The notes beneath the pieces are model-generated. The model was given only the letters and a program-made list of their open reading frames with translations, made no database searches and was not told the origin of the DNA. This document shows, one piece after another, positions 399-55,914 of a stretch of 64,000 bases of DNA. The stretch spans positions 1,192,001-1,256,000 of the forward strand of contig NZ_CP159258.1 of assembly GCF_040438925.1 (NCBI RefSeq), in the 5' to 3' direction. How positions within the stretch are numbered: the first letter of the stretch is position 1; each line of letters opens with the position of its first letter. The position numbers and the translations under genes were made by a program. The stretch is from Pseudomonas sp. MYb327 (GTDB lineage Bacteria; Pseudomonadota; Gammaproteobacteria; Pseudomonadales; Pseudomonadaceae).

Positions 399-416
399 CA
401 TCGTCTCAACGGACTA
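399..416 (-). promoter_or_regulatory. Shared 18-bp operator-like dyad before hsaB
   Basis: On the minus strand it reads TAGTCCGTTGAGACGATG, a close match to the recurring element. It ends 60 bp before the hsaB start. A -10-like AATACT lies at 373-378, 21 nt downstream. It belongs to a family of 16 sites in the window. Confidence 0.65.
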
Positions 417-432
417 ACGCTAATGTACGAAT

Positions 433-450
433 CTCGTCCGATTGGACGAG
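433..450 (+). promoter_or_regulatory. Operator-like dyad, most symmetric copy, before aldehyde dehydrogenase
   Basis: CTCGTCCGATTGGACGAG has perfect 7-bp arms around GATT. It is the same GTCC-N4-GGAC core as the other sites, but with CTC instead of TAG on the left and GAG at the right end. It ends 85 bp before the aldehyde dehydrogenase ATG. No convincing -10 hexamer sits at the usual spacing, which makes this the least typical promoter of the set. Confidence 0.5.
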
Positions 451-535
451 GCGACGCAGCTTTGCGAGAGGCTAGGGTGGCGCCAGGCGCATCGGGCGCT
501 CAACGGCCATCGAGCCAACCTGCAAGGGAATAACA

Positions 536-1975
536 ATGAGTACAGCCGCATCTTGCGTCCAAGACCTTTCCAGCCTGCTGGCACAACAGAAAAAAGCCTT
601 TGCCAGCAGCGGCAATGTCAGCGCCGACACGCGTCGCCAGCGACTCCAACAAGTGATCGACCTGCTGGTCCATAACCACCAGGCCTTGACCACGGCAATC
701 GACCAGGATTTTGGCGGGCGGCCTGCCGGGTTTTCATTGATGAATGACGTGCTGGGCGCACTGGCCTCGCTCAAACATGCCCGTGACCACCTGCAGGACT
801 GGATGCAGGACGAGCCGCGCGAGATGTTCGCTCCTTATGACCAGCTCGGAGCCAAAGCCTGGGTCATGCATCAGCCAAAAGGCACGGTGGGCATCCTGGG
901 TACCTGGAACGCACCGCTGTATACCTTGTTCAGTCCACTGGCCTCGGCGCTGGCGGCCGGCAACCGGGCCATCCTCAAGCCTTCGGAAGTGGTGCCTCGC
1001 ACCGCCGAACTGGTGGCGCGTTTGTGCGCCGAGCATCTCGACCCACTCGTAGTGGCGGTGGTCAACGGCGGGCCGGAACTGGGCGAGGCCTTTAGCAGCC
1101 AGCCCTTCGACCACCTGGTGTTCACCGGTAGCACGGCGATTGGCCGGCTAGTGATGGGCAATGCCGCAAAAAACCTGGTGCCGGTGACCCTGGAGCTCGG
1201 CGGCAAGTCGCCGGTGATCGTTTCAACCACTGCTGATTTGAACAAAACCGCCTTCAGCATCGCGGCGGGCAAGATTTGCAATGGTGGGCAGGTCTGCATC
1301 AATCCGGATCTTGTCTACGTGCCCAAGGCTCAACTGGAATCGTTTCTCGATGCGCTGCGCAGTGCCTATTGCGATCTCAACCCGACAGTGGCCGGCAATC
1401 CGGATGTGGTGGCGGTGGTCAACCAACGTCATCTGGACCGGGTCGAAGGTCTGGTACAGGACGCCGAGTCCAGCGGTGCGCGCGTCGAATGCCTGCCAGA
1501 ATCGTTGGCCGTGGAGGCTGGCGGGGACCGTCGGCGTCCGCTGCGCGTGGTGATTGATCCGGTTCCGGACAGCCTGATCATGCACGAAGAAATCTTTGGC
1601 CCGGCGATGGTTGTGCTTGGTTATGACGACCTCGAACAGGTCATTGCGCAGATCAACGGCAGACCACGTCCGCTGGCGTTGTACTACTTCGGCGAGAATG
1701 CACACGAGCAACGTTACGTGCTGGAGCACACGCTGTCAGGCGGGGTCACTCTCAACGATGTGATGATGCATCCCGCGCTGCACGATGCGCCGTTCGGTGG
1801 CGTCGGCGCTTCGGGCATGGGCCATTACCATGGCCGCGAAGGCTTTCTCGAATTCAGTCACTTGCGCACGGTGTTCCAGGCGTCGGCCCATGACCCGCGC
1901 CGCGAATGGGGCCTGTTGCCGCCTTATGGCGAGCACTATCTGGCGGCCATGCTGGCCGGGGTAACCTCCGACTGA
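536..1975 (+). CDS. NAD(P)+-dependent aldehyde dehydrogenase, coniferyl-aldehyde type; candidate steroid side-chain aldehyde dehydrogenase
   Basis: 479 residues, normal for the ALDH family. The coenzyme-binding FTGSTAIGRLV segment, the general-base VTLELGGKSP motif (Glu220) and the nucleophile motif GGQVCINPD (Cys254) are all present, so the active site is intact. The C-terminal APFGGVGASGMGHYHGREGF is characteristic of the coniferyl aldehyde dehydrogenase branch. In cholate degradation by Pseudomonas the first side-chain aldolase step gives a C22 steroid aldehyde that an ALDH (Sad in strain Chol1) oxidises to the acid. Two aldolase modules in this window make that role likely, but the substrate is inferred. 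The start ATG has a GGGA/AAGGGA Shine-Dalgarno upstream. Confidence 0.85.
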   Translation: MSTAASCVQDLSSLLAQQKKAFASSGNVSADTRRQRLQQVIDLLVHNHQALTTAIDQDFGGRPAGFSLMNDVLGALASLKHARDHLQDWMQDEPREMFAPYDQLGAKAWVMHQPKGTVGILGTWNAPLYTLFSPLASALAAGNRAILKPSEVVPRTAELVARLCAEHLDPLVVAVVNGGPELGEAFSSQPFDHLVFTGSTAIGRLVMGNAAKNLVPVTLELGGKSPVIVSTTADLNKTAFSIAAGKICNGGQVCINPDLVYVPKAQLESFLDALRSAYCDLNPTVAGNPDVVAVVNQRHLDRVEGLVQDAESSGARVECLPESLAVEAGGDRRRPLRVVIDPVPDSLIMHEEIFGPAMVVLGYDDLEQVIAQINGRPRPLALYYFGENAHEQRYVLEHTLSGGVTLNDVMMHPALHDAPFGGVGASGMGHYHGREGFLEFSHLRTVFQASAHDPRREWGLLPPYGEHYLAAMLAGVTSD

Positions 1976-2075
1976 TTTCAGCGCGGGGGCCTTGCGCCCC
2001 CATCCGCTGCATGGGACAGGCCACTGTTTATGTACAAGGCAATTACTATCGCCCAGCGCTTCAAGCGCGCCTTTG

Positions 2076-2308
2076 GTGGCGCAGATTCGCAGTGGCGCCG
2101 ATGATGTGATCCGCAGCGTGGACACCATCGCCGCCGTGATTACCGAACAGGTGCGCGTCACGCGGGAAATGGTCAGCCGGGTCGAGAGTGTCTCGACCGG
2201 CACCGGAGCGTTGTCGGCCAACGCCGGGCGTAGCGCGGTGGCCGCCGCGACCTGGAGCAACTGGCGCGGGCATTGGATCAATTGTCGGCGCGCTTCAATG
2301 TCGCTTGA
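2076..2308 (+). pseudogene. Remnant of a methyl-accepting chemotaxis protein C-terminus
   Basis: One frame reads VAQIRSGADDVIRSVDTI, then ITEQVRVTREMVSRVESVS, which resembles the final coiled coil of MCP signalling domains. Near 2251 the reading shifts by one base and continues as LEQLARALDQLSARFNVA followed by a stop at 2306-2308, the usual MCP ending. No start, transmembrane segment or highly conserved signalling tip is present. It appears to be a decayed 3' fragment left by rearrangement between the aldehyde dehydrogenase and amidase genes. A GC-rich hairpin (GGGGGC/GCCCCC, 1985-2001) without a T-run lies just upstream. Confidence 0.5.
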
Positions 2309-2343
2309 ACCCGGCCTTGTTCCATCTGAATACCGCTCCCCCC

Positions 2344-2433
2344 TGTAGGAGCGAGCCTGCTCGCGATGAGGTCAGCAAATTCAACATCAACGTTGGCTGA
2401 TCTAGCGCTTTCGCGAGCAGGCTCGCTCCCACA
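2344..2433. repeat. REPIN (paired inverted REP elements)
   Basis: TGTAGGAGCGAGCCTGCTCG (from 2344) is mirrored by CGCGAGCAGGCTCGCTCCCA (from 2412), with a short spacer. This is the common Pseudomonas REP doublet. Confidence 0.85.
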
Positions 2434-2485
2434 AGGAGTCGGACCTCTATCCTTAACAACCCACAATCAGGGCGCGATCATCACC

Positions 2486-4054
2486 ATGGATAACCACGAA
2501 AACGCACCACTCAATTCCACCACCGGCTGGCCGCGCCGCAGCGTACTCAAGGCCGGTGCCGTGGCTGTCGGCGTCGGGATTCTGGGGCGGTTTGCCGATG
2601 CCCGCGCGGCGGGGCTGTCGGCCAGCGACTATCAGGCGATGGATGCCTGGGCCATGAGCCAGGCGATCCGCAGTGGCGAACTGAGCGCCGAGGACCTCTT
2701 GGCGGCGGCGCTGTTGCGCTACAACGAGGTCAACCCCAAGGTCAATGCAGTGAACATGCTGCATGAAACCTACGCGCGGACTTTGCTCGCCCAGCGCCGC
2801 GTCGCCGGCACCTACAACCAGGGCGCCCTGGCTGGTGTGCCGCTGCTGTTCAAAGACCTGAACACCACGCTGCAAGGCACGATCACCAGTAACGGTAGCC
2901 GGATGTTCAAGGATTCACCGCCCGCCGCGCGTACCAGCACGCTAATCACCCGTTATGAACAGGCCGGTGCGGTGCCGTTCGGCAAGACCACATCGCCCGA
3001 ATTCGGCTTAACCACCACCACCGAATCCTTGGCCTGGGGCCAGACTCATAACCCGTGGAACCTGGCCATGAGCGCCGGCGGTTCTTCCGGCGGCTCGGCT
3101 GCGGCGGTGGCGGCGGGGATCGTTCCCGTGGCTCATGCCACTGATGGCGGCGGTTCGATCCGCATTCCCGCTTCGTACTGCGGCGTGGTCGGGCTCAAGC
3201 CGACCCGCTATCGCACCCCCAGCGGGCCACTGCATTTCGAAGGTTCGTTTGGCGCCAGCGCTGCCAATGTGGTGTCGCGCACGGTGCGTGATACCGCGCT
3301 GTTCCTCGATGCCGGTCAGGGGCATGAGGCGGGCAGTGCTTATTGGTGCCCACCGTTGATTCGACCTTATGTGGAAGAATTGCAGCGTGATCCGGGCAAG
3401 TTGCGCGTGGCCGTGGTGCGCCAGTCACTGACCGGCGCCCCTTTGGACCCGGCGATTGCCGCCACGCTGGAGCAGACCATCAAGCAACTGTTGGCGCTTG
3501 GGCATCAACTCGACGAATTGACGCTGAACATCGATCCGCGCCAGTTGTTCGGTGCCCATGGCACTGCGCTCGGCACAGCCTTGCGTGTGCAGATTCATGA
3601 CCGGGAGCAGGTACTCGGGCGGGCTGCCACGGCTCAGGATCTGGAGAAGATCACCTTGGTCAACCTCGAGCGCTCGAAAGCGACCAGTGGCGAAGACCTG
3701 TACCGCGCGCGGCAAGCGTTCGAGCGTATTGGTGCGACGATGGAGCAGCACTTTGAACTCTATGACGTGATCCTGTCGCCGGTCACGGGCAGCCTGACCC
3801 CGAAGCTGGGTCTGTTGTCGCTTGACCAGCCTTGGGACAGCTACGCCCATCAGGCCATGGGCAGCGCCGGTTTCACCGTGATAGCCAATGTCAGCGGCCA
3901 GCCGGCTATCTCCCTGCCACTGGGCCAGAGCGATGACGGCTTGCCGGTGGGCATGATGTTCACCGCTCGCCTGGGTGGCGAAGACGTGCTGTTGCGTCTG
4001 GCCAGCCAGTTGGAACAGGCACATCCATGGGCCGCCAGGCGCGCCATGCTGTAA
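2486..4054 (+). CDS. Tat-exported amidase-signature hydrolase
   Basis: 522 residues from the ATG at 2486. The N-terminus has a twin-arginine motif (WPRRSVLKAG) followed by a hydrophobic stretch ending in ADARA, so the protein is predicted to be exported folded by the Tat system. The amidase-signature triad is complete: Lys123 (LLFKDLN), the cis-Ser in AGGSSGGSAAA (around 200-201) and nucleophile Ser224 (DGGGSIRIPAS). The family hydrolyses C-N amide bonds. In this context a plausible substrate is a glycine- or taurine-conjugated bile salt, released in the periplasm before uptake, but no substrate can be read from sequence. It has no copy of the 18-bp dyad upstream; a REPIN separates it from the gene before. 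Confidence 0.85.
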   Translation: MDNHENAPLNSTTGWPRRSVLKAGAVAVGVGILGRFADARAAGLSASDYQAMDAWAMSQAIRSGELSAEDLLAAALLRYNEVNPKVNAVNMLHETYARTLLAQRRVAGTYNQGALAGVPLLFKDLNTTLQGTITSNGSRMFKDSPPAARTSTLITRYEQAGAVPFGKTTSPEFGLTTTTESLAWGQTHNPWNLAMSAGGSSGGSAAAVAAGIVPVAHATDGGGSIRIPASYCGVVGLKPTRYRTPSGPLHFEGSFGASAANVVSRTVRDTALFLDAGQGHEAGSAYWCPPLIRPYVEELQRDPGKLRVAVVRQSLTGAPLDPAIAATLEQTIKQLLALGHQLDELTLNIDPRQLFGAHGTALGTALRVQIHDREQVLGRAATAQDLEKITLVNLERSKATSGEDLYRARQAFERIGATMEQHFELYDVILSPVTGSLTPKLGLLSLDQPWDSYAHQAMGSAGFTVIANVSGQPAISLPLGQSDDGLPVGMMFTARLGGEDVLLRLASQLEQAHPWAARRAML

Positions 4055-4069
4055 CCCGACACCTCCATC

Positions 4070-4138
4070 CTGTAGGCGCTGGCTTGCCAGCGAAAGCGAT
4101 GTCACGGACGCCATCGCCGGCAAGCCAGCGCCTACAGG
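4070..4138. repeat. REPIN
   Basis: TGTAGGCGCTGGCTTGCCAG is mirrored by CTGGCTTGCCGGCGA read on the opposite strand. The pair lies in the gap after the amidase and just before the operator at 4156. Confidence 0.85.
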
Positions 4139-4155
4139 GAGCCGTTATATCCCCC

Positions 4156-4173
4156 TAGTCCACTTTGACGATG
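4156..4173 (+). promoter_or_regulatory. Shared operator-like dyad before KstD
   Basis: TAGTCCACTTTGACGATG. A -10-like GATCAT lies at 4195-4200 (22 nt downstream). The element ends 99 bp before the ATG at 4273. Confidence 0.65.
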
Positions 4174-4272
4174 AGCCCATCCCCCCGCAGCCCCGATCAT
4201 GGGCTGCACTCCGCCAGCGCACCCTGCGTGGTCGGCGGTTTCTTTCTGACCTCAGCTAATGGCATAACAACA

Positions 4273-5982: not shown

Positions 5983-5991
5983 GAGGCAGAG

Positions 5992-8468: not shown

Positions 8469-8482
8469 ACCGGATCTGCCTT

Positions 8483-9410: not shown

Positions 9411-9428
9411 CATCGTCCGTTCAGACGT
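9411..9428 (-). promoter_or_regulatory. Shared operator-like dyad before the crotonase gene
   Basis: Minus strand ACGTCTGAACGGACGATG. It ends 66 bp before the start at 9344, with a -10-like GACACT at 9384-9389. It lies in the divergent gap with the SDR at 9487 and could serve both genes, but only the leftward side shows the usual spacing. Confidence 0.6.
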
Positions 9429-19498: not shown

Positions 19499-19516
19499 TA
19501 GTCTTTCCGGACGATG
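19499..19516 (+). promoter_or_regulatory. Shared operator-like dyad before DUF1329 gene
   Basis: TAGTCTTTCCGGACGATG starts 8 bp after the ligase stop and ends 65 bp before the DUF1329 start. A -10-like AACAAT lies at 19536-19541. Confidence 0.65.
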
Positions 19517-23023: not shown

Positions 23024-23041
23024 CATCGTCCATTCAGACCA
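23024..23041 (-). promoter_or_regulatory. Shared operator-like dyad before MFS gene
   Basis: Minus strand TGGTCTGAATGGACGATG. It ends 60 bp before the GTG start at 22963, with a -10-like GAGCAT at 22998-23003. The regular 60-bp gap supports the GTG start. Confidence 0.62.
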
Positions 23042-23081: not shown

Positions 23082-23099
23082 TAGTCTTGTCGGACGATG
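23082..23099 (+). promoter_or_regulatory. Shared operator-like dyad before OYE operon
   Basis: TAGTCTTGTCGGACGATG with a -10-like AATCAT at 23120-23125. It forms a divergent pair with the site at 23024. The gap to the ATG at 23216 is 116 bp. Confidence 0.65.
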
Positions 23100-31404: not shown

Positions 31405-31422
31405 TAAGCCATTTGGACGATG
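31405..31422 (+). promoter_or_regulatory. Operator-like element before the YCF48/RND genes
   Basis: TAAGCCATTTGGACGATG has a conserved right half and a weaker left half. A -10-like GACTAT lies at 31443-31448. The gap to the start at 31566 is 143 bp, longer than at the other sites. Confidence 0.5.
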
Positions 31423-32566: not shown

Positions 32567-34999
32567 ATGAATCAAAGTAAACACTGGGTGACGCGCTGCG
32601 TCGAAACGTGCGCGGACCATCTGATGGCCTGGCGCAAGGGACTGCTGGCGCTGTTTATTCTGGTGACGCTGGGCCTGGGCTACAGCGCCACCCACACGCA
32701 GCTGGATCCGGGTTTCAACAAGCAGATCCCGGTGCGTCACGAATACATGATCAACTTTCTCAAATTCAGTCGTTACTTCACCGGCGCCAACCGCTTCCTG
32801 GTCAGCGTGCGCTGGAAAGGCGAGGGCGACATCTATAACGCCGAGTACCTGGAGACCCTGCGCAAAGTTACCGACGACGTGTTCTTCATCTCCGGGGTCA
32901 GTCGTCCCAGCGTGACGTCGCTGTTCACCGCCAACGTGCGCTACATCGAAATCACCGAGGAGGGTTTCTTTGGCGACGTGGTGGTGCCGCCGCGCTTCAG
33001 CGGAACCACCGAGGACCTTGCGCAAGTGCGCAGCAACACGGCGGCCTCCGGGCAGGTCGGTCGTCTGGTGGCCAATGACCTGAAGTCGGCCATGGTCCGT
33101 GCAGATCTGCAGGATACCGACCCCAAGACCGGTCAGCCGGTGTCGTATGTCGAGATCGCCAAGCGTCTGGAAGAGATCCGCGGCAAGTACAACAGCCCCA
33201 ATATCGAAATCAACATTGTCGGATTCGCCAAACTGGTGGGCGATGTGGTTGAAGGGTTGAACACCGTGATCGGTTTCTTTGTGGTGGCCTTCGTCATCAC
33301 CGGGCTGCTGCTGTGGCTGTATTCCCGTTCCCTGCGCCTGACAGTGGTGGCACTGGTGGTCGCGTTGCTGCCGGTGGTCTGGTTGTTGGGCCTGTTGCCG
33401 CTGCTGGGTCTGGGTATCGATCCGATGTCGATCCTCGTGCCGTTCCTGATTTTCTCTATCGGCGTGTCCCATGCAGTGCAGATGACCAACGCCTGGAAGC
33501 AGGACGTGCTGGCCGGTAGCAATTCGAAGGAAGCGGCGCGTTCGGCGTTCTGCAAGATCTTCATCCCCGGTTCCCTGGCCTTGCTGATGAATGCCCTGGG
33601 GTTTGCGGTGATCATGCTGATCGACATTCCCATCGTTCACGAACTGGGAGTGACGGCCTGCATCGGCGTGATGTTGATGATCATCACCAACAAACTGATG
33701 TTGCCGGTGATCATTTCCTACCTGCGCCTGGAGCCTGCGCTATTGCGTCGGGCGCAATCGCGGCCGACGGGCAAGCACCGCCTGTGGTGGCGCCTGTCGG
33801 CGCTGGCCGAACCGGGGCCAGCCCTCGGTGTGTTTGTTGTCAGTCTGTTGCTGCTGGCGGGCGGGGCCTACAAGGCGCGTGACCTGGCGGTGGGCGATAT
33901 CGGCGCCGGCGCGCCGGAGCTGCGGACCGATTCGCGCTACAACCAGGACAACAGCAAGATCATCGGCAGCTATTCCATCGGGCTCGATGTGATGTCGGTG
34001 TTCGTCCAGGTCAAGGGTGTCGAAGAAGGTTGCCTGTCGCCTGCGGTGATGCGTGCGGTGGAAGCCTTCGATTTCCGCATGCGTACGGTCACCGGCGTGC
34101 AGTCGATCCAGAGCGTGGCGGACATGGGCAAGCGGGTGATTGCCGGCAATAACGAAGGCAACCCGCGTTGGGCAGCGATTCCGGGATCGCCCCGTGGCTT
34201 GAGTCAGGGCGCGCGGGCCTATGTTCCGGATGACGGCCTGGTCACGGACGGCTGCCAGCAGATGCAGATTCTGGTGTTCCTGGCTGACCACGAAGGCAGC
34301 ACCGTCAGCCATGCGATCGCCGAAGCCCGGCGAATCATCGCTGAAGTCAGCTCGCCGCAAGTCGAGTTCCTCCTGGCTGGCGGCAACGTCGGGGTGATGG
34401 CGGCCTCCAACGAGGCGGTCAAGCGCGCCGAAGTGATCATGCTCGGGGCACTATTCGGATCGGTGGCATTGTTTTGCTGGCTGACATTCTTGTCGATCCG
34501 CGCGGTGCTGTGCATTCTGGTGCCGCTGGCGATTGTCGCGATCCTCTGCAACGCACTGATGACCATGCTCGGGATCGGCCTGAAGGTTGCGACCTTGCCG
34601 GTGATGGCGCTGGGGGTGGGCGTGGGCGTCGATTACGGGATTTATTTGTACGAGCGTATTCAGCACGAAATGCTGCGCGGCACCAACCTGCGCGAGGCGT
34701 TCTATCAGGCCATGTGCCAACGCGGTACGGCGGCAGTATTCACCGCCGTGACCATGTCCATTGGCGTCTGCACCTGGGCTTTCGCACCGTTGAAGTTCCA
34801 GGCCGACATGGGTGTGCTGCTGTCGTTTATGTTTCTGGTCAACGTGCTGGGGGCGATTTTCCTCCTGCCGGCGCTGGCGGCCTGGTTCAATCGCGGGCGG
34901 CCACTGGTCACCGGACGTGTACGCACGCCGGCACCGGCTCAAGGGCAGTTCCGCTTGAAAAACAGCCCTGCTGCACGTGATACCGGGAGCGAAAAATAA
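32567..34999 (+). CDS. RND/MMPL-family permease
   Basis: 810 residues from the ATG at 32567 (GAGAGG at 6 nt). A GTG at 32549 overlaps the previous stop and is the alternative. Topology is that of HpnN/MmpL-like RND proteins: one N-terminal membrane helix, a periplasmic loop, five helices (for example TVIGFFVVAFVITGLLLWLY), a second loop, then a repeat set with GVGVDYGIYLYERI and AVFTAVTMSIG. Such permeases move lipids or hopanoids across or out of the inner membrane, and steroid movement is the natural guess here. It is co-transcribed with the YCF48-like gene. Confidence 0.83.
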   Translation: MNQSKHWVTRCVETCADHLMAWRKGLLALFILVTLGLGYSATHTQLDPGFNKQIPVRHEYMINFLKFSRYFTGANRFLVSVRWKGEGDIYNAEYLETLRKVTDDVFFISGVSRPSVTSLFTANVRYIEITEEGFFGDVVVPPRFSGTTEDLAQVRSNTAASGQVGRLVANDLKSAMVRADLQDTDPKTGQPVSYVEIAKRLEEIRGKYNSPNIEINIVGFAKLVGDVVEGLNTVIGFFVVAFVITGLLLWLYSRSLRLTVVALVVALLPVVWLLGLLPLLGLGIDPMSILVPFLIFSIGVSHAVQMTNAWKQDVLAGSNSKEAARSAFCKIFIPGSLALLMNALGFAVIMLIDIPIVHELGVTACIGVMLMIITNKLMLPVIISYLRLEPALLRRAQSRPTGKHRLWWRLSALAEPGPALGVFVVSLLLLAGGAYKARDLAVGDIGAGAPELRTDSRYNQDNSKIIGSYSIGLDVMSVFVQVKGVEEGCLSPAVMRAVEAFDFRMRTVTGVQSIQSVADMGKRVIAGNNEGNPRWAAIPGSPRGLSQGARAYVPDDGLVTDGCQQMQILVFLADHEGSTVSHAIAEARRIIAEVSSPQVEFLLAGGNVGVMAASNEAVKRAEVIMLGALFGSVALFCWLTFLSIRAVLCILVPLAIVAILCNALMTMLGIGLKVATLPVMALGVGVGVDYGIYLYERIQHEMLRGTNLREAFYQAMCQRGTAAVFTAVTMSIGVCTWAFAPLKFQADMGVLLSFMFLVNVLGAIFLLPALAAWFNRGRPLVTGRVRTPAPAQGQFRLKNSPAARDTGSEK

Positions 35000-35147
35000 A
35001 CCTGCCGGGCCTATTGTGGAGCCCGCGGGCGCTAGGGAAACTGGCAGGCAAGTATCAGTCGAAAAGGGGGGAGCCCTGGGTTCCCCCAGCCGAAATTATA
35101 AAAATAACAAGGGAAGGGCACAGTCCTTACCCGAGCGAGATAAGACT

Positions 35148-36383
35148 ATGCAAAACGGTGACTTGACCCATGAAGCCCTGGCCAGCCTTGGCCTCGACCT
35201 CACGCGCTACAACCAGTTGGTGGGCGAAATCTACGAAGGCGCCCTCGATCCGAAATTGATGGCTACTGCCCTCAGAAGCTTTCTCAAACTCTACGACGCC
35301 AACTTCGTCACCTTGATTCTGCGCGTGCCGGATCAACCCGATACGGGCGTGATGATTATCGTCGGCGACATCGAGGGTGCCGGTGATGTCTGCTACATGA
35401 CCTACCCGCAGACCAATTCGCCGTTCTCCAATCAGCCACTGGACAGTGTATTTACGGTCGATGACATCATGAGCTCCACGGAGTGGGAACACAGCGCCTA
35501 CTTCAAGGCGTTCTGCGGCCCCAATGATGTGTATCACGTGATGTGCGCGGACATTTCCACACCGGACGGCGGCAAGCTGCGCTTTCGCGTCACCCGCCCC
35601 AAGCGGACCGCCAATTTCTCTGCCCACGACCGGGCGGTGTGCACCAGTTTCCTGCCACACCTGCGGCGTGCCTCGCAGTTGCATAACCTGCTGGACCGTA
35701 GCGAATCGCTGAGTGAGTTGTACTCCCAGGCCATCAGCCGGTTGTCGGTGGCAACGCTGGTGCTCGACGAAAGCGGCAGCGTGTTGCAGATCAATCCGGT
35801 GGCCCAGGAAATCCTCGCCCGTTCCGATGGCCTGAAGCTGGTGGGCGGGCGCCTGGAAGCGACGTATCCCAGTGACAACCGTGAACTGCAGCGCCTGATT
35901 CGTGGTGCGTTCTGCCCGGATGCGCCTAAAAGCGCCGAGGCCATGTCGGTGACGCGGCCCTCGGGGCTGGTCAACCTCGGGGTGGTGGTCGAATCGATTC
36001 CGTCCCTGGACTGGGCGGAGGAGAAGGGCCAGCCGGCGGCACTGGTTTACATCCGCGATGCGTCGAGCAAATCCCTGGCCAGTGAAGTGGTGACCAAGCA
36101 GCTGTTCAACCTGACCAAGGCCGAAACCGCCCTGGCGATGGAACTGGCCAACGGCTTGTCCCTCGAGGAAGCTGCCGAGGTCTTGAATATCCGCCGCAAC
36201 ACCGCGCGGGCGCACTTGCGTTCGATCTTCTCCAAGACCGGCGTGCGGCGCCAGACCGAGTTGGTGCGCATCATGCTCAACAGCGTGGTGGCCTTGGGCA
36301 AGCCGCAGCTGGCATTGAAATTGACCGAGAAAATCAAGGTGCCGCCATTGCAACTGGCCGTGCCGATCTATCGCCAGGCCTGA
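35148..36383 (+). CDS. LuxR-family transcriptional regulator, TeiR-like
   Basis: 411 residues from the ATG at 35148. The C-terminal region (about 322-380) is a GerE/LuxR helix-turn-helix: LTKAETALAMELANGLSLEE, then AAEVLNIRRNTARAHLRSIF. A PAS-like segment lies near 200-240 (LVLDESGSVLQINPVAQEIL). The N-terminal part is conserved-looking but unnamed and lacks the acyl-homoserine-lactone domain. Comamonas testosteroni activates steroid genes through TeiR, a LuxR-type protein, and this is the only regulator in the window. It is the best candidate to bind the 16 dyads described here. No dyad precedes its own gene; the 148-bp upstream gap holds an imperfect hairpin near 35067-35090 and nothing else I recognise. 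Confidence 0.8.
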   Translation: MQNGDLTHEALASLGLDLTRYNQLVGEIYEGALDPKLMATALRSFLKLYDANFVTLILRVPDQPDTGVMIIVGDIEGAGDVCYMTYPQTNSPFSNQPLDSVFTVDDIMSSTEWEHSAYFKAFCGPNDVYHVMCADISTPDGGKLRFRVTRPKRTANFSAHDRAVCTSFLPHLRRASQLHNLLDRSESLSELYSQAISRLSVATLVLDESGSVLQINPVAQEILARSDGLKLVGGRLEATYPSDNRELQRLIRGAFCPDAPKSAEAMSVTRPSGLVNLGVVVESIPSLDWAEEKGQPAALVYIRDASSKSLASEVVTKQLFNLTKAETALAMELANGLSLEEAAEVLNIRRNTARAHLRSIFSKTGVRRQTELVRIMLNSVVALGKPQLALKLTEKIKVPPLQLAVPIYRQA

Positions 36384-36447
36384 TCCTGCAAAACCGCCGC
36401 CGGGCCATCCGCTGCCCGGCGTCGTGGCCATTGACGCCGCGTATTTT

Positions 36448-36465
36448 TAGTCCGCACGGACGATG
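36448..36465 (+). promoter_or_regulatory. Shared operator-like dyad before 3-alpha-HSD gene
   Basis: TAGTCCGCACGGACGATG contains the perfect inverted repeat GTCCG-N2-CGGAC. A -10-like GATACT lies at 36487-36492 and the ATG is 53 bp downstream. It is one of the best copies. Confidence 0.7.
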
Positions 36466-36518
36466 CCGTCCCGTGATCGCCCTGTCGATACTGGGCGGAC
36501 CAATCACGGAGAACCACC

Positions 36519-37286
36519 ATGCCAATTACAGCCATCACCGGCAGTGCCTCGGGAATCGGGGCCGCCGTATCCGCCGCCATGCGCGCTGCCGGGCATCAGG
36601 TTATCGGTATCGATCGCAGCAACGCCGAAGTGATCGCCGACCTGTCCACCCCTCAGGGGCGTGACACCGCCATCGGCCAAGTGCTTGAACTCAGCGGTGG
36701 AGTCCTCGACGGCCTGATCTGCTGCGCCGGGGCCGGTGTCACCGCGCCCAACTGCGGCCTGATCCTAGCGGTCAATTACTTCGGTGTCAGTCAGTTGCTC
36801 GATGGCCTGCAGGACGCGTTGGCCAAGGGTCAACAACCGGCGGCGCTGGTGATCGGCTCTGTGGCGGCGACTCATTCGGGGCCCGAGGGCCAGTCGTTGA
36901 TCGAAGCAATGATCGCCGGCGATGAGGTCCGGGCACTGGAATTGGCCAACAGACTCGGCCAGCCGCACGTCGCCTATGCCGCTTCCAAATACGCCATCAG
37001 CCAGCACGTCCGCAGCTTGGCCGTGGGCTGGGGCAAGCAAGGTATGCGGGTCAATGTGGTGGCGCCGGGCGCGGTGGAAACTCCGTTGCACCAGGCATCG
37101 CTGGAGGATGCGCGTTTTGGCCAGGCGACCCGCGATTTCGTCGCGCCGCTGGGCCGCGCCGGGCGCCCTGATGAGATCGCCGCAATGGTCGCTTTCTTGC
37201 AATCGCCACAAGCGTCGTTTATCCATGGCACCGTGGTGTTCGTCGATGGCGGAATGGACGCCATGGTCCGCACGTCGCGCTTCTAA
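36519..37286 (+). CDS. hsdA: 3-alpha-hydroxysteroid dehydrogenase/carbonyl reductase
   Basis: 255 residues. It follows Comamonas testosteroni 3alpha-HSD/CR in detail: ITGSASGIGAAV for NAD binding, IDRSNAEVIADLSTPQGR, the VNYFGVSQLLDGL helix, YAASKYAIS for Tyr/Lys, and the C-terminal FIHGTVVFVDGGMDAMVR. The compact DLS stretch in place of a longer loop is specific to this subgroup. It reversibly oxidises the 3-alpha-hydroxyl of bile acids and androsterone to the 3-ketone, the entry step of ring A metabolism. It is preceded by a strong operator copy. Confidence 0.85.
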   Translation: MPITAITGSASGIGAAVSAAMRAAGHQVIGIDRSNAEVIADLSTPQGRDTAIGQVLELSGGVLDGLICCAGAGVTAPNCGLILAVNYFGVSQLLDGLQDALAKGQQPAALVIGSVAATHSGPEGQSLIEAMIAGDEVRALELANRLGQPHVAYAASKYAISQHVRSLAVGWGKQGMRVNVVAPGAVETPLHQASLEDARFGQATRDFVAPLGRAGRPDEIAAMVAFLQSPQASFIHGTVVFVDGGMDAMVRTSRF

Positions 37287-41956: not shown

Positions 41957-41974
41957 CATCGTCTCAATGGACTA
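41957..41974 (-). promoter_or_regulatory. Shared operator-like dyad before the 7-alpha-HSD-hsaEGF group
   Basis: Minus strand TAGTCCATTGAGACGATG, nearly identical to the hsaB site. A -10-like GATAGT lies at 41931-41936. Its left half on the minus strand (GGACTA on the plus strand, 41969-41974) is the first base block of the adjoining tandem repeat. Confidence 0.68.
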
Positions 41975-42092
41975 GCGGGGGGCTGTGTGCATATCCGTTC
42001 CTGCGGTAACGGACTAGCGGGGGCCGTGTACATATCCGTTCCTGCGGTAACGGACTAGCGGGGGCCATGTACATATCCGTTCCTGCGGTAAC
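41969..42092. repeat. Three tandem 41-42 bp repeats fused to an operator
   Basis: Units at 41969-42010, 42011-42051 and 42052-42092 each start GGACTAGCGGGG and end ATATCCGTTCCTGCGGTAAC with few differences. Each unit carries the operator half-site GGACTA, and the first one is part of the dyad at 41957. The array then runs into the large inverted repeat. Confidence 0.88.
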
Positions 42093-42812
42093 GGCCACCT
42101 AGGGTTTCGCCCTTACGGCGAGTCACTTTTGGAAGAGCCCAAAAGTAACCAAAAGGCTCTTGCCCCACCACTTGGTGCCTCGCCTAGGCTCGGCATGCCC
42201 TCACTCCGGCATTGCTCCGTGGGTCGCCGCGATGGGCCATCCCTGGCCCAGCGCGGCTAAACCGGCGTCCTGCCGGTTTACCCACGGAGCAATGCCTGCG
42301 TTCGGCCATCGTGGTTTAACGGGGCGCCACGATCAAAATCAAAGCGAGGCGGCCTGACAGCCGACCTGATTTCAAGTGATCACGTTTCCCTGTAGGAGCG
42401 ATGGACGTCAACGATATCGCGCCCTGTCTGGAGGATCGCGTTGTCTTGACGTTCATCGCGAGCAGGGCTCGCACCCACAGTTGGATCGTAGACAGGGCCA
42501 GTCATCAGGTCGGCTGTCAGGCCGCCTCGCTTTGCTTTCGCTTGTGATCTTCTTGCCCCCTCGAGAGGCCGAGTGGAGGTTCTGCGCAGTGGGCAACCCG
42601 GCATGGATGCCGGGTTAGCCGCCCCCGGCCATGGATGGCCGATGGCGGCGGGCCCACGGAGCAGGACCGGAGCGAGGGCACCCTGAGCCTAGGCGAAGGG
42701 CCGAACGAAAGGGGCAAGAGCCTTTGGTTACTTGGGGCTTTTCCAAGTGACCCGCTGTAAGAGCGGAACCATAAGTGGCCGTTACCGCAGGAATGGATAT
42801 GTACCCGCTCAA
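42070..42812. repeat. Composite ~740-bp imperfect palindrome of two inverted intergenic repeats around a REPIN
   Basis: The gap 41895-42928 contains no gene. CATATCCGTTCCTGCGGTAA (from 42072) reappears inverted near 42783-42803, and alignment continues through the TTTTGG/AAGAGCCC and GGCTCTTGCCCC blocks, GCCTAGGCTC and CTCCGTGGG on both sides. A perfect 29-bp inverted repeat lies inside (42341-42369 against 42505-42533). In the centre is a decayed REPIN (about 42391-42480) with GATGGACGTCAA/TTGACGTTCATC. The arms resemble common long Pseudomonas intergenic repeats; I do not assign a family name. Confidence 0.8.
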
Positions 42813-42837
42813 CCTAATACCCCACCCACACCACCCC

Positions 42838-42855
42838 TAGTCCGCTTTGACGATG
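42838..42855 (+). promoter_or_regulatory. Shared operator-like dyad before hsaA
   Basis: TAGTCCGCTTTGACGATG with a -10-like GATGAT at 42876-42881. It ends 73 bp before the ATG at 42929. It lies just outside the composite palindrome. Confidence 0.68.
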
Positions 42856-46877: not shown

Positions 46878-46895
46878 CTCGCCAAACGGACGATG
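46878..46895 (+). promoter_or_regulatory. Operator-like element before DUF1302 copy 2
   Basis: CTCGCCAAACGGACGATG has an intact right half and a degenerate left half. A -10-like CATGCT lies at 46916-46921. The gap to the ATG is 65 bp. Confidence 0.52.
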
Positions 46896-48607: not shown

Positions 48608-48681
48608 TGATCAACGCTGCGTCGCGATGTGGCGACGCCGCCCTTCATTTGTAGCCTGATAACAATAAAGAGAGGCCTGTC

Positions 48682-49914: not shown

Positions 49915-49923
49915 CCCCCCTCA

Positions 49924-49957
49924 AAACACACCGCTCCCACAGGAGGAGCGGTGTTTG
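49924..49957. terminator. Bidirectional terminator-like hairpin between convergent genes
   Basis: ACACCGCTCC (49928-49937) pairs with GGAGCGGTGT (49945-49954) around a 7-nt loop, flanked by A- and T-rich ends. It separates the OYE gene from the leftward hsaD. Confidence 0.65.
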
Positions 49958-49961
49958 GAGG

Positions 49962-50795: not shown

Positions 50796-50920
50796 GGGGT
50801 TCTCCATTGACGGCGGATTCATGAAGCACAGCCACGCCAGGCGCTGCAGCAGATTGAAGGGGACTCAGCACCTGGCGTGGTGCGCGCCTTGCGAATGCTG
50901 GGCTCTGATCGGGTTATTCA

Positions 50921-50938
50921 CATCGTCCGTTCAGACCA
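50921..50938 (-). promoter_or_regulatory. Shared operator-like dyad before hsaD
   Basis: Minus strand TGGTCTGAACGGACGATG with a -10-like CAGCAT at 50895-50900. The gap to the hsaD start is 125 bp. It is 8 bp from the rightward dyad at 50947, forming a back-to-back pair. Confidence 0.6.
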
Positions 50939-50946
50939 CGCGGCGA

Positions 50947-50964
50947 TAGTCCCATCGGACGATG
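50947..50964 (+). promoter_or_regulatory. Shared operator-like dyad before the SDR-SDR-SnoaL operon
   Basis: TAGTCCCATCGGACGATG with a -10-like AATCAT at 50986-50991; the first ATG is at 51055. Confidence 0.66.
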
Positions 50965-51054
50965 TGTAGCCAAGTGCTTGCCGCTAATCATGCAGGGGAT
51001 GGCGCCACTGCAAGGGCAGCGGGCCGCAGCGTATGTGCACATTTGGAGATTGCT

Positions 51055-51789
51055 ATGAAGTTACTCAACAAAGTGGCCTTTGTGACTGGCGCCGGGCAGG
51101 GCATGGGCCAGGCCATCGTGCGTGGTTTTGTCGCCGAAGGCGCCAAGGTGGTGGCGGTCGACCTGAATCAGACGACCCTGGCCGAGAGCCTGGCAGACCT
51201 GGGCGACAAGGTCCTGGCCCTGGCCTGCAATGTCGGTGACGGTGCTTCCGTGGCCGATGCCATGGGCCAGGCCGAGCAACACTTCGGTGGCCTCGACATC
51301 CTGGTCAACAACGCTGGCGTGGGCGGGCTGGACAGTTTCCTCGACACCCCGGACGAGAGCTGGGCGCGTGTGATCGGCGTGAACCTGGGCGGCACCTTCC
51401 TGTGCTGCCGTGAGGGCGCAAAACTGATGGTCAAGGGTGGCCGCAAAGGCGCGATCATCAACCTCTCCAGCACCGCCGCGCTGACCGGTGAAGGCCCCAG
51501 CCACTACTGCGCCTCGAAAGCCGGGGTGATGGGCCTGACCCGTTCGATCGCCCGAGAACTGGCAGCCAGCGGTATCCGCGTCAACACCCTGGTGCCTGGG
51601 CCGACCAACACGCCGATGATGGCCGGTATCCCTGATGAATACATGCAGGCACTGCTGAAAAACGTGCCCCTGGGTCGCATGTGCGAGACCGACGAAATCG
51701 CCAAGGTTGCGGTGTTCCTCGCCAGCGAAGACGCCAGTTTCATGACCGGGCAGAACATCGCCGTCAACGGCGGCATGGCTTTTATCTGA
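51055..51789 (+). CDS. Short-chain dehydrogenase/reductase (steroid hydroxyl candidate)
   Basis: 244 residues from the ATG at 51055 (GGAG at 6 nt). [40 protein letters not shown] and [11 protein letters not shown] provide the full SDR set. It is first in a three-gene operon with another SDR and a SnoaL-like protein. In Comamonas, steA and steB are paired SDRs that invert the 12-alpha-hydroxyl of cholate through a 12-ketone; this pair is a candidate for the same job, by context only. Confidence 0.78.
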
Positions 51790-51803
51790 TCAGGGAGTCA
51801 CCC

Positions 51804-52577
51804 ATGAGCAAGCGTTTACAAGGAAAAATCGCCTTCGTCACTGGCGCCGGTTCAGGCATCGGTGAAGCCACCGCACTGCGCTTCGCCGAGGAAGGCGCCA
51901 CGGTGGTGCTGTGCGGGCGCCGCATAGAACCGCTGCAAGGCGTGCAGGAAAAAATCCATGCCCAGGGCGGGCAAGCCGAAATCGCCGTGGCCGATGTCAG
52001 CGACGAACAGGCTTACGTCGGCGCGCTTCAAGCCACTGCGCAACGCCACGGTCGCCTGGATATTCTGGTCAACAACGCGATGGCCTACACCTGGGGCGGC
52101 ATCGACACCATGACCACCGCCGACTGGCACGCCAACTTCGCCACCACCGTCGACGGCACCTTCTGGGGCACCCGCACCGCGATGCAGTTGATGAAAGCGC
52201 AAGGCGGCGGTTCGATCGTCAACATCGCTTCGATCTGTGGCTTGTTCGGCACGTCATGGATGGCCGGTTACTCGGCGGCGAAGGCGGCGGTGATCAACTT
52301 CAGCCGTGCGGCAGCCAGCGAAGGCGCCCCCGACAATATTCGTTGCAACGTGATCATCCCGGGCGTGGTCGACACCCCGGCCACAGCCGGCATGCTGGGG
52401 GACGCCAAGACCCGCAGCAACACTGAAAAAGTGATTCCGATGAAACGCGTAGGCCTGCCGGTGGAACTGGCCAACGCCATCCTGTTCCTGGCCAGCGACG
52501 AGGCTTCCTATGTTACCGGTGCCAGCCTGGCGGTGGACGGTGGGCGAGGTTCGGACCTGTATACGGTGCTCGACTGA
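51804..52577 (+). CDS. Short-chain dehydrogenase/reductase, partner SDR
   Basis: 257 residues from the ATG at 51804 (GGGAG upstream). [39 protein letters not shown] and [11 protein letters not shown] are the SDR motifs; the NNAM variant differs from the neighbour. It ends in a TGATG overlap with the SnoaL-like gene, so all three are coupled. It may act as the reductase half of a hydroxyl inversion or make a substrate for dehydration. Confidence 0.77.
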
Positions 52578-53212
52578 TGGGCCTGGAATCCGTCGCGCTG
52601 CTTGAGCGCATCGACCGCCTCGAGTCGCTGGACGCGATCCGTCAACTGGCCGGCAAGTATGCCTTGGCGCTGGACATGCGTGACATGGATGCCATGGCCA
52701 ATTGCTTTGCCCCGGACGTGCGCGTGGGCCGCGACAAGAGCGGTCGCGCGCACCTCAAGGCGTGGCTGGACGAAACCATGCGCAAGCAGTTCCACGGCAC
52801 GTCGCATCATCTGGGGCAACACATCATCGAGTTCAGCGATGCCGATCACGCTACCGGCGTGGTCTATTCGAAGAATGAACATGAGACGGGTCCCGAGTGG
52901 GTGATCATGCAGATGCTGTATTGGGACGACTACGAGCGGATCGACGGGCGCTGGTGCTTCCGTCGTCGCTTGCCGTGCTACTGGTACGCGACCGACCTGA
53001 ACAAACCACCGATCGGCGGCTTGAAAATGCGCTGGCCAGGGCGAGAGCCCTACGCTGGCACCTTCCACGAACTGTTTCCGTCCTGGGATGCCTTCTGGGC
53101 GCAACGTCCGGACAAGGACGCCTTGCCGCAGATCGCTGAACCGGCACCACTGGAAGGTTTCCTAAAAAACCTGCGCCGAGGGGCGGACGACCCGAAGATT
53201 CGCGTGCGCTGA
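52577..53212 (+). CDS. SnoaL-like (NTF2-fold) protein, candidate steroid dehydratase
   Basis: 211 residues, translationally coupled (TGATG) to the SDR upstream. The first 130 residues match the SnoaL_4/NTF2 layout: a helical start (LESVALLERIDRLESLDAIR), LALDMRDMDAMANCFAPDV, GTSHHLGQHIIEFS, and DDYERIDGRWCFRRRLPCYW. Clostridial BaiE (bile acid 7-alpha-dehydratase) and the Hsh2-type 7-hydroxysteroid dehydratase of Sphingobium share this fold. The context of two SDRs makes removal of a 7- or 12-hydroxyl as water attractive, but the C-terminal 60 residues are not part of the standard fold and I cannot confirm the reaction. Confidence 0.72.
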   Translation: MGLESVALLERIDRLESLDAIRQLAGKYALALDMRDMDAMANCFAPDVRVGRDKSGRAHLKAWLDETMRKQFHGTSHHLGQHIIEFSDADHATGVVYSKNEHETGPEWVIMQMLYWDDYERIDGRWCFRRRLPCYWYATDLNKPPIGGLKMRWPGREPYAGTFHELFPSWDAFWAQRPDKDALPQIAEPAPLEGFLKNLRRGADDPKIRVR

Positions 53213-53266
53213 ACATGGCCGTGCGCGGCTAACCTGCGAGCTCATAATATGGAGTCGACCCTGATC

Positions 53267-53360
53267 CCTGTAGGAGCTGGCTTGCCAGCGATGGCGTCCG
53301 TTCAGCCGATAAATATGTTGACTGATCGGCCGCTATCGCTGGCAAGCCAGCTCCTACAGG
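53267..53360. repeat. REPIN between convergent genes
   Basis: CCTGTAGGAGCTGGCTTGCC is mirrored perfectly by GGCAAGCCAGCTCCTACAGG. It may also help stop transcription from both sides. Confidence 0.88.
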
Positions 53361-53408
53361 TGATCGGTGCATGGCGTTGGCTTTTCACCTGGCGCCAGGC
53401 CGCGCTCC

Positions 53409-54602
53409 TTAATTCGTGACTCGCGGCTCGCGCGGCATGCCCAGCGCCCGTTCGGCAATCACGTTGCGCTGGATTTCATTGCTGCCGCCGTAAATGGTGT
53501 CCGAGCGGGTGAACAAAAACAGCGACTGCAATCGACTGAGCTGGTAGGGCGCGGCGTCGAGAATTTCCCCGGCGTCGCCCAGCACGTCCATGGCCAGTTT
53601 GCCCAGATCGCTGTGCCACGTGGACCAGGCCAGTTTGTAAATCATGGCTTCACGGCCCAGATTGCCGTCTTGCGGACCTGAAAGCATACGCAGCGAGTTG
53701 TAACGCAACACCTTGAGACCGGCCCAGGCCTGGGCAATGCGCTGGCGCAGCATTGGATCGCGCGCGGCGCCGTTGGAGCGGGCGATGCGGATGATTTCGT
53801 CGAGTTCGTTGTGGAACTGCATCTGCTGCCCCAGCGTGGAGACGCCACGCTCAAATCCCAGCAGCGCCATCGCGATCTTCCAGCCATCGCCCGGTTGACC
53901 GATCAGGTTGCCGGCATGGGTAGCTGCCTGGTCGAAGAACACCTCATTGAATTCACTGGTGCCGGTCAATTGCTGGATCGGCTGCACGCGAATGCTGTCC
54001 TGAGCCATCGGCACCAGGAGGAACGACAAACCGTGATGTCCCTGGCTGCCGGGTTCAGTGCGCGCCAGCACGAAACACCAGTCGGCCTCGTGGGCCAGGG
54101 AGGTCCAGACCTTCTGCCCGCTGATCAACCAGTGTTCGCCCGTGGCATCCAGTTTCGCCCGGGTCTGCACGTTGGCCAGGTCCGAACCGGCGCCCGGCTC
54201 CGAATAGCCCTGGCACCAGAACTGGCTGCCGTCGAGGATGCCGGGCAACAGGCGTTGCTGTTGGGCCGAAGTGCCGAAGGCGGCGAGTGTCGGGCCGACC
54301 AGGCCTTCGCCAATATGGCCCATGCGTCCCGGGCCACCGGCGCGAGCATATTCCTCATGGAAGATCACTTGCTGGCTGATCGAGAGTCCGCGTCCGCCGT
54401 GTTCCTTCGACCAGCCAACGCCGATCCAGCCACCGGCGGCAAGCCGGCGTTCCCAGGCTTTACGCTCTTCAGGAAAACAGTGCTCATCCCCCGGACCGCC
54501 GCGAAAGCGCAACGGCGCAAACTCGCCGCTCAGGTGCTCGGCCAGCCATTGGGCGACTTCTTTGCGAAACACTTCGTCTGCACCACTGAAACCGATTTTC
54601 AT
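53409..54602 (-). CDS. Acyl-CoA dehydrogenase, catalytic-type subunit
   Basis: 397 residues from the ATG at 54602, which overlaps the upstream gene's TGA (ATGA); a much longer open frame to 55103 is the shadow of the other subunit. QGYSEPGAGSDLANVQT and IYGGSNEIQRNVIAERALG are ACAD motifs. The medium-chain Glu is Gly, and LLGFERGVS places Glu251 at the isovaleryl-type position. It pairs with the ACAD encoded just upstream. Its acyl-CoA may be a HIP-derived or side-chain intermediate. Confidence 0.82.
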   Translation of the reverse strand: MKIGFSGADEVFRKEVAQWLAEHLSGEFAPLRFRGGPGDEHCFPEERKAWERRLAAGGWIGVGWSKEHGGRGLSISQQVIFHEEYARAGGPGRMGHIGEGLVGPTLAAFGTSAQQQRLLPGILDGSQFWCQGYSEPGAGSDLANVQTRAKLDATGEHWLISGQKVWTSLAHEADWCFVLARTEPGSQGHHGLSFLLVPMAQDSIRVQPIQQLTGTSEFNEVFFDQAATHAGNLIGQPGDGWKIAMALLGFERGVSTLGQQMQFHNELDEIIRIARSNGAARDPMLRQRIAQAWAGLKVLRYNSLRMLSGPQDGNLGREAMIYKLAWSTWHSDLGKLAMDVLGDAGEILDAAPYQLSRLQSLFLFTRSDTIYGGSNEIQRNVIAERALGMPREPRVTN

Positions 54603-55771
54603 GCTTGCTCTCCCAAAAGATGCGCGGCCAGACGCTCGCGATGCAGCGTCGGGCTGCCCAACAGATGCTCGCCGGCGCGGGCACGTTTGAAGTACAGGTG
54701 TGGATCGTATTCCCAGGTAAAACCGACGCCGCCATGCAGTTGAATCGATTCGGCCGCACAGTGGAAAAACGCCTCGCTGGCATGGATCTTCGCGGTGGCG
54801 GCGGCCTGTTCCAGCTCCTGGATCACGGCGGTATCGCCGCCCGGGTCGAGGCGTTCCTGAGCCACGCACGCTGCGTAGTAGGCGGCTGAGCGGGCGCATT
54901 CGACTTGCAGCATCATGTCGGCGCAGCGGTGTTTGATCGCCTGGAAACTGGCAATGGTGCGTTTGAATTGTCGGCGTTCGGCGATGTACGCGAGGGTCAG
55001 GTCCAGGGCTTGTTGCGCGCCGCCAGTTTGCTCGGCGGCAAGGCCTATGGCGCCAATCAGCAGCGTGTCGCGCAGCACCGACCAGCCTTGTTCGTGGCTG
55101 CACAGTCGCTGTGCCTCGTTGACCTGTACCTGATGCATTTCAATGCGAGCCAGGCGCCGGGTCTGGTCGAGGGTGGCCAGGGGCGCGCGGATCACGCCCG
55201 GTGTATCGCCCGGCAAGACGAACAGGCCGATGCCCTGTTCGCCCTGGGTGCCGGGAGCGCGGGCGGCAACGATCAGCAGGTCGGCCGAGGCACCATCAAT
55301 GACTTGTGCGTACTGGCCCTCAAGGGTCCAGCCTCCCGGACATGGCTTGGCGACGGCTTGCACACTGCAAGCTTGCAGCCCCGGAACACTGGCGAAGGCC
55401 AGCGTGGCGCGGGTTTCGCCGGCGGCAATCGCGCTCAGCCAAAGCGCCTGCACGCTCTCGTTGTGCCCCAGTAACAAGGCCGGGGTGGCCAGGCACGCCG
55501 TGGCGAACAGCGGCGAACCCAGCAGATAGCGACCGCTTTGTTCCAGCAGGATTGCCAGCTCGACAAACCCCAGGCCCATGCCGCCAAAGCGCTCGGGCAC
55601 CATTAATGCCGGCCAGTACAGCTCCTGGCCAATCCGCCGCCAGACCTCGGGGTCATGCGCGTCCGGGCGATTCATTGCAGCGCGCACGGCGTGCGAGTCG
55701 CTGGCCTGAGCGAGAAAACGCTCGGCGCTGTCGCGAATCATCAGGTGCTCTTCGGTAAAAGCGAACTCCAT
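54599..55771 (-). CDS. Acyl-CoA dehydrogenase, partner subunit
   Basis: 390 residues from the ATG at 55771; the open frame to 55837 starts nearer the promoter element. RRQFKRTIASFQAIKHRCAD and LHGGVGFTWEYDPHLYFKRA are the FAD-contact motifs, GTNEIQ is absent, and the helix-G position (DTLLIGAIGLAAEQ) lacks the Glu. First gene of the two-gene leftward operon. Confidence 0.82.
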   Translation of the reverse strand: MEFAFTEEHLMIRDSAERFLAQASDSHAVRAAMNRPDAHDPEVWRRIGQELYWPALMVPERFGGMGLGFVELAILLEQSGRYLLGSPLFATACLATPALLLGHNESVQALWLSAIAAGETRATLAFASVPGLQACSVQAVAKPCPGGWTLEGQYAQVIDGASADLLIVAARAPGTQGEQGIGLFVLPGDTPGVIRAPLATLDQTRRLARIEMHQVQVNEAQRLCSHEQGWSVLRDTLLIGAIGLAAEQTGGAQQALDLTLAYIAERRQFKRTIASFQAIKHRCADMMLQVECARSAAYYAACVAQERLDPGGDTAVIQELEQAAATAKIHASEAFFHCAAESIQLHGGVGFTWEYDPHLYFKRARAGEHLLGSPTLHRERLAAHLLGEQA

Positions 55772-55831
55772 GGGGGCGGTCTCTGCAAGGCGGATGGATG
55801 CGTGAGTCTGGGGCGGCGGCGGCGGTGTTCG

Positions 55832-55849
55832 AATCACTAAAACGGACTA
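55832..55849 (-). promoter_or_regulatory. Degenerate operator-like element before the leftward ACAD pair
   Basis: Minus strand TAGTCCGTTTTAGTGATT keeps the left half but has a changed right half (AGTGATT for GACGATG). It ends exactly 60 bp before the start at 55771, with a -10-like CAGACT at 55805-55810. Confidence 0.48.
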
Positions 55850-55896
55850 GGGCATTTCTGCTGTGCGCCAAACCCCTGTGGGAGCGAGCAGGTGCT

Positions 55897-55914
55897 TAGT
55901 CTCAACGGACGATG
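55897..55914 (+). promoter_or_regulatory. Shared operator-like dyad before hsaC
   Basis: TAGTCTCAACGGACGATG with a -10-like CACAAT at 55935-55940, 65 bp before the hsaC ATG. A partial REP (CCTGTGGGAGCGAGCAGG, about 55874-55892) ends 4 bp before it. Confidence 0.68.

Follow-up and report, generated by a model that had tools for sequence, protein, structure and literature searches.

A putative operator of TeiR/TesR-like LuxR-type regulators in the steroid degradation cluster of Pseudomonas sp. MYb327

The LuxR-type protein TeiR/TesR was reportedly named as an activator in 2004. In the accessible parts of the sources consulted, TeiR/TesR of Comamonas testosteroni is reported as required for steroid gene induction, and Pseudomonas stutzeri Chol1 is described as having two TeiR-like genes in its steroid cluster, deletion of one of which delays growth on cholate (cited there as unpublished data). 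The accessible text of a 2021 review calls the regulation of bile-acid degradation in Proteobacteria largely unknown (PMC8399759). Here we analysed positions 1,192,001-1,256,000 of the single-contig, 6.15-Mb genome of Pseudomonas sp. MYb327 (the window; 64,000 nucleotides). It holds a steroid degradation cluster, which extends over ~70 kb of the genome, and repeated copies of an 18-bp dyad, TAGTCYNNNNGGACGATG, built on GTCC-N4-GGAC. An original prediction, made from the sequence, had read 16 such copies as a steroid regulon; that observation is confirmed and the interpretation is supported. The element is very probably the operator of TeiR/TesR-like LuxR-type regulators encoded in the cluster, through which the steroid pathway would be activated in class II fashion.

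As with C. testosteroni TeiR/TesR, a LuxR-type gene lies within the steroid degradation cluster; the likeness is one of description. As in Chol1, there are two TeiR-like genes in the cluster, again likened by description, the accessible text describing no Chol1 operator. The accessible text of PMC6895838 repeats that, among testosterone degraders, tesR-like genes are found only in C. testosteroni, a statement that does not hold if the genes here are TesR relatives; no Comamonas sequence was among the 240 regulator relatives listed. Control of steroid catabolism across a whole cluster is shared with the actinobacterial KstR/KstR2 regulons. According to the accessible sources KstR/KstR2 are TetR-type repressors, unlike the LuxR-type regulators here; no TetR gene is named among the scanned window genes, in which no search aimed at TetR was made. 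The KstR/KstR2 operator also differs from the present element.

In LuxR-type class II activation, a lux-box-like dyad sits at -42.5. The element here has its dyad centre at -42.5 from the predicted -10, and a GerE helix-turn-helix (HTH) is found in the regulator, but the operator word is another one and the protein appears to carry GAF and PAS domains and no acyl-homoserine-lactone domain. We regard the operator and its regulon as real and well supported; they belong with regulators of a known kind and are not described in the searchable literature. No operator is given in the accessible parts of PMC6678751, PMC8399759, PMC12239570, PMC6895838, PMC13101464, PMC4810484 and PMC8700777. The accessible open-licence literature yielded no TeiR/TesR operator (one may be in print elsewhere), no steroid paper, by title, among those listed for the literal motif words, and nothing on this regulation by title or abstract start for DUF1329/DUF1302 with LuxR.

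An 18-bp element confined to the steroid cluster

All 16 elements are present in the window, 14 of them clear and two (46878 and 55832) weak; the one predicted at 433 is better read as 434-451 on the + strand. Five sites match TAGTCYNNNNGGACGATG exactly, six have one mismatch, three have two, and the two weak sites have more than three; the element is better written TAGTCY-N4-GGACGATG. The GGACGATG side points to the downstream gene at all 16 sites (434 being nearly symmetric). The statement that most copies end ~53-75 bp before a start codon holds for 10 of the 16, the other six lying at 84-143 bp, where the start codons are the most plausible ones as picked by us. The cluster includes genes for a kstD-like enzyme, a thiolase, an acyl-CoA dehydrogenase, a ligase like steroid-24-oyl-CoA synthetase, hsaA-, hsaC- and hsaD-like enzymes, 4-hydroxy-2-oxovalerate aldolase, fadD3, ipd-type enzymes and transporters; the exact enzyme names are inferred, because many NCBIfam names are best matches under the curated cut-off. 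The candidate operators and associated features, in window coordinates, are:

399-416, -, operator; 1 mismatch; AATACT at the -10 place; faces a flavin reductase gene (hsaB-like) running left out of the window
434-451, +, operator before an aldehyde dehydrogenase gene (536 on), nearly symmetric; 2 mismatches; hexamer TAGGGT
4156-4173, +, operator before a kstD-like gene; 1 mismatch; hexamer GATCAT
9411-9428, -, operator before an enoyl-CoA hydratase gene; 2 mismatches; hexamer GACACT
19499-19516, +, operator before a DUF1329 gene; exact; hexamer AACAAT
23024-23041, -, operator before an MFS transporter gene; 1 mismatch; hexamer GAGCAT
23082-23099, +, operator before an old-yellow-enzyme (OYE)-type gene; exact; hexamer AATCAT
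31405-31422, +, operator before the Ycf48-like, RND, teiR1 run; 2 mismatches; hexamer GACTAT; kept at 42/44 orthologues
35148-36383, +, teiR1, TeiR/TesR-like LuxR-type regulator, 411 aa; called from the GerE HTH (26.2 bits), the length of relatives and a GAF-like fold; longest frame from 34977
36417-36439, +, terminator-like hairpin 3' of teiR1, with a T run that reaches the operator following it; weak (3 found vs 1.7 expected in shuffles)
36448-36465, +, operator before an SDR gene; exact; hexamer GATACT; 46/54 orthologues
41957-41974, -, operator before an SDR gene; 1 mismatch; hexamer GATAGT; 21/22 orthologues
42838-42855, +, operator before an hsaA-like gene; 1 mismatch; hexamer GATGAT; 33/33 orthologues
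46878-46895, +, doubtful operator before a DUF1302 gene; left half poorly and right half perfectly matched; hexamer CATGCT; 1/9 orthologues, missing in the closest
50921-50938, -, operator before an hsaD-like gene; 1 mismatch; hexamer CAGCAT
50947-50964, +, operator before an SDR gene; exact; hexamer AATCAT
55832-55849, -, weak operator before an ipdE2-like gene; hexamer CAGACT; 4/4 orthologues have a TAGTCC...GATT variant equally placed, which reaches 15 bits in only 1
55897-55914, +, operator before an hsaC-like gene; exact; hexamer CACAAT; kept at 6/6 orthologues listed

With up to three mismatches allowed, the window holds 25 matches, against 6.6 (standard deviation 2.6, largest 12) in 100 dinucleotide shuffles. 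A position matrix was built from 14 of our own sites, 13 of them inside the window, so that window counts made with it are partly circular; its tests in other genomes are free of that circularity. At 18 bits or more it finds 14 window matches, where 500 column-shuffled matrices average 0.06 (largest 3), and it finds one match also in the 38 kb upstream of the cluster.

The genome scan that the original prediction had proposed finds that the motif is not equally common away from steroid genes: all six exact copies in the 6.15-Mb genome lie in the steroid cluster (1,211,499-1,262,066). There are 12 one-mismatch copies, seven in the cluster and five elsewhere. Those five (1169273, 2254619, 4045154, 4330595 and 4396017) were set aside as lying within long open frames, which in G+C-rich DNA are no proof of coding. 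One of the seven in the cluster, 58607-58624 (-, 16 bits), is intragenic, falling within the beginning of a frame for an enoyl-CoA hydratase, and probably reflects chance. At two or fewer mismatches the genome is at background level, with 73 matches vs 122 for the reversed pattern.

Beyond the window end, an exact copy at 1,262,049 immediately follows the second regulator gene and precedes a DUF1329 gene, and a 16-bit copy at 1,258,187 precedes an uncharacterised gene. The kshA gene, which the original prediction had asked to be checked, lies just outside the window and is preceded by a copy of the motif (1,263,564, 15 bits); this copy is diverged (TAGTCCAACTGAAGGATG), with AATGAT correctly placed. 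Before kshA orthologues the motif occurs at 15 bits or more in 28/41 and at 13 bits or more in 37/41. For a second KshA-like gene, at 3,333,661, there was no match above 8 bits within its 3.6-kb locus.

Promoter geometry and the regulator genes

A hexamer of the form NANNNT, proposed at 15 of the sites, starts 20-22 nt past the element; the placement proved consistent and the count is corrected to all 16 window sites. With 1,262,049 included the hexamer is present at 17/17 of our own sites, other offsets averaging 9% (highest 35%), and adding 1,258,187 and the kshA site gives 18/19. For an independent set we collected 294 sites of at least 18 bits with full flanks from 100 loci of other genomes, and dropped any whose 50 downstream bases were >55% identical to those of our own or of earlier-kept sites, which left 120. 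The hexamer lies at +20 to +22 in 91% of these dissimilar promoters, against a mean of 8.7% elsewhere (highest 21%), so that the predicted class II geometry is reproduced in the promoters of other genomes. The strongest columns are A at +22 (74%), A at +25 (60%) and T at +26 (73%), and flanking columns other than the hexamer are near background. By group, the hexamer is present at 94% of 31 betaproteobacterial-grouped sites (13 loci, two of them metagenome-assembled genomes named only Proteobacteria), at 88% of 16 sites from the clade-2 and G322 loci (see below) and at 90% of the 73 others.

Taking +21 to +26 as the -10, from which start points would be predicted, the element spans -50 to -33 with its dyad centre at -42.5; relative to this predicted -10 it thus lies where a class II operator is centred, near -42. 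Judged from the columns of the 120 promoters, the sequence where a -35 hexamer is usually spaced would be approximately ATGYNS, with two of six matches to TTGACA.

Consistent with the LuxR-type activator that this geometry had implied, two LuxR-type genes are present in the cluster, teiR1 in the window and teiR2 5 kb beyond its end. The C-terminal HTH of TeiR1 matches PF00196 at 26.2 bits (cut-off 23.5); a Pfam scan at 1e-3 gave HTH families only and no autoinducer-binding domain. In the predicted model there are GAF-like, PAS-like and HTH parts, the N-terminal part matching GAF folds, and the protein looks like a GAF-PAS-HTH one-component sensor. The accessible text reports TeiR/TesR of C. 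testosteroni as a membrane-bound, polar kinase, from which the protein here may differ. The same HTH is seen in TeiR2 by alignment and is nearly unchanged across regulators of two clades. Clade-2 regulators (~40% identical; L086, L087 and others) occur in other Pseudomonadaceae, share the motif, and have KshA, OYE, SDR, SurE, DUF1302 and acyl-CoA ligase genes as neighbours. A homologue with 90% identity to the Pseudomonas regulator, protein P0019, carries the label Rhodococcus sp. IEGM1300 and may come from a mislabelled or contaminated assembly.

Operator 31405 opens a run in which teiR1 comes after Ycf48-like and RND genes; the stretch 34900-36600 showed no consensus promoter. The teiR2 run, from 1,258,187, includes a 0.5-kb gap. 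An operator within 300 bp of the gene was found for 0/86 of each regulator. teiR1 follows an operator-started run, as teiR2 probably does too, which makes positive feedback likely.

Co-occurrence of regulator and motif across genomes

Among 398 genomes of the family, the regulator has a match at 1e-10 in 94, of which 68 match at 1e-60 or better, a line for a 'strong' regulator that was chosen after viewing the search result. Exact motifs occur in 89/398 genomes. Two or more are present in 68/68 strong-regulator genomes (mean 5.3, 363 in total) vs 2/330 others (Fisher value 4e-75, which ignores relatedness), and counts of the reversed pattern are 0-2 on each strand of a genome. The two exceptions are G104, which is 83% complete with a weak regulator match, and G322. 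Relatives of the two cluster regulators thus predict the motif across genomes. In 20 hand-picked genomes, all 17 with regulator and motif have KshA (at least 192 bits) and HsaC-like proteins (at least 274 bits, under the curated cut-off of 450). KshA is missing from the controls G353 and G355, and the HsaC match of G353 reaches only 80 bits.

We also retrieved 80 loci by the regulator protein alone, among the matches listed (some share one genome); their sources are many Pseudomonas, Halopseudomonas, Azoarcus sp. Aa7, Aromatoleum, Thauera and Zoogloea. They hold 223 motif matches of at least 18 bits vs 0.6 expected, 79 of the 80 holding one, often directly after the regulator gene. A motif of at least 15 bits lies within 300 bp of 243/304 orthologues of genes with a site vs 27/638 orthologues of other cluster genes (SDRd 12, rnd 5, SDRg 5, oye2 2, SDRb 1, acad2 1, ltp2 1), and its conservation spans Pseudomonas and betaproteobacteria.

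A class-level search of 369 genomes gave one more strong regulator genome, G620, with five exact motifs. In the nine of ten other weak-match genomes scanned there were no exact motifs, and 30 one-mismatch copies vs 24 for the reversed pattern; 120 genomes of the order around G620 gave no further strong regulator genome. In a plasmid collection 28 records match the regulator, and six were read. Matches of at least 14 bits carried the hexamer at 4/4 on a Vibrio alfacsensis plasmid and 3/3 in Burkholderia arboris, and the hexamer-bearing Sphingobium match lies just before a gene annotated 3-ketosteroid-9-alpha-monooxygenase. The Vibrio record, from a fish-gut bacterium (NZ_CP140104.1, 118395-159555; L209), combines motif copies with a regulator of 52% identity and a steroid-type beta-oxidation run.

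Proposed mechanism and alternative explanations

A nearly mirror-image word at a fixed distance before the steroid genes of regulator carriers is very probably the landing site of that regulator. We propose that the regulator, as a dimer with a steroid or catabolite bound in its GAF and/or PAS domain, would bind GTCC-N4-GGAC centred at -42.5, replacing a weak or missing -35 box, and, as the spacing suggests, would recruit RNA polymerase as a class II activator does. This would switch on ~18 promoters, for side-chain, A/B-ring (kstD, kshA, hsaA-D) and C/D-ring (ipd) degradation and for transport.

Several observations weigh against this proposal. Site 55832 has a low score, the doubtful element at 46878 is missing before a 94%-identical orthologue in L071, and 1,258,187 lacks the hexamer at the expected offset. 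TeiR2 has no Pfam family at 1e-5. The counts of co-occurrence and conservation ignore genome kinship. On the plasmids the hexamer is absent at 2/5 Caballeronia, 3/9 Cupriavidus and 2/3 Sphingobium matches, and pNL2 of Novosphingobium aromaticivorans (regulator 27% identical) has no motif of at least 14 bits. Finally, G322 has three exact motifs and a KshA gene, but neither a regulator nor an HsaC match was found. Its motifs (L088, G322:C33:72000-91000; 7942, 10519 and 13856, with KshA nearby) are possibly orphaned operators of a decaying cluster.

Co-occurrence cannot by itself name the binder, and motifs without a TeiR-like match, as in G322, would suit a different regulator conserved in steroid clusters, neither TeiR1 nor TeiR2. 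We nonetheless consider this unlikely: loci fetched by TeiR alone nearly always hold the motif (79/80 listed), often directly after the regulator gene, and it is common to the two TeiR clades, whose HTH is near-identical. A palindrome close to a promoter is also compatible with a repressor operator, with the LuxR-type genes only repressing or being mere neighbours, and the accessible literature reports LuxR- and TetR-type repressors of a steroid gene in Comamonas. In 120 promoters, however, the element occupies -50 to -33, ahead of the -10 and where activators of this class usually sit, and it goes together with the TeiR-like gene, so that repression has a low probability.

The constant distance to a -10-like hexamer might instead mean that an alternative sigma factor recognises the element as part of the promoter, without a separate DNA-binding protein. 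This is very improbable: compared with a -35 element, an 18-bp dyad at -42.5 is long and lies too far upstream, and its presence tracks a LuxR-type gene. A dispersed repeat with no regulatory role, which a repeat-ended insertion separating one pair of sites might bring to mind, is scarcely credible for an element that is confined to one cluster, faces a gene at 16/16 sites and is kept at orthologous promoters while the flanks, hexamer aside, are near background.

TAGTCY-N4-GGACGATG is probably a general 'steroid box' of Proteobacteria, used by a GAF-PAS-HTH sensor family of at least two clades, ~40% identical, with the same operator and -42.5 geometry across beta- and gammaproteobacteria, on chromosomes and other replicons such as the Vibrio plasmid, possibly with some Sphingobium included. 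In that case steroid catabolic genes could be predicted from sequence alone by means of the box, and TeiR/TesR action would be directly testable. A defined operator with a fixed promoter geometry makes steroid regulation open to simple tests, offers parts for steroid biosensors, and provides a search word for unassigned steroid genes; the DUF1329, Ycf48-like and RND genes are likely regulon members.

The insertion mentioned above (~0.8 kb, 41975-42837) separates the divergent operators 41957 and 42838. Close to its ends it carries ATATCCRTTCCTGCGGTAACGG in inverted copies (41991, 42032 and 42073, +; 42776, -), and it has two Rfam TwoAYGGAY matches (42201-42303, -; 42591-42655, +). The equivalent operators in relatives are 26 bp (L102) and 262 bp (L071) apart, start to start.

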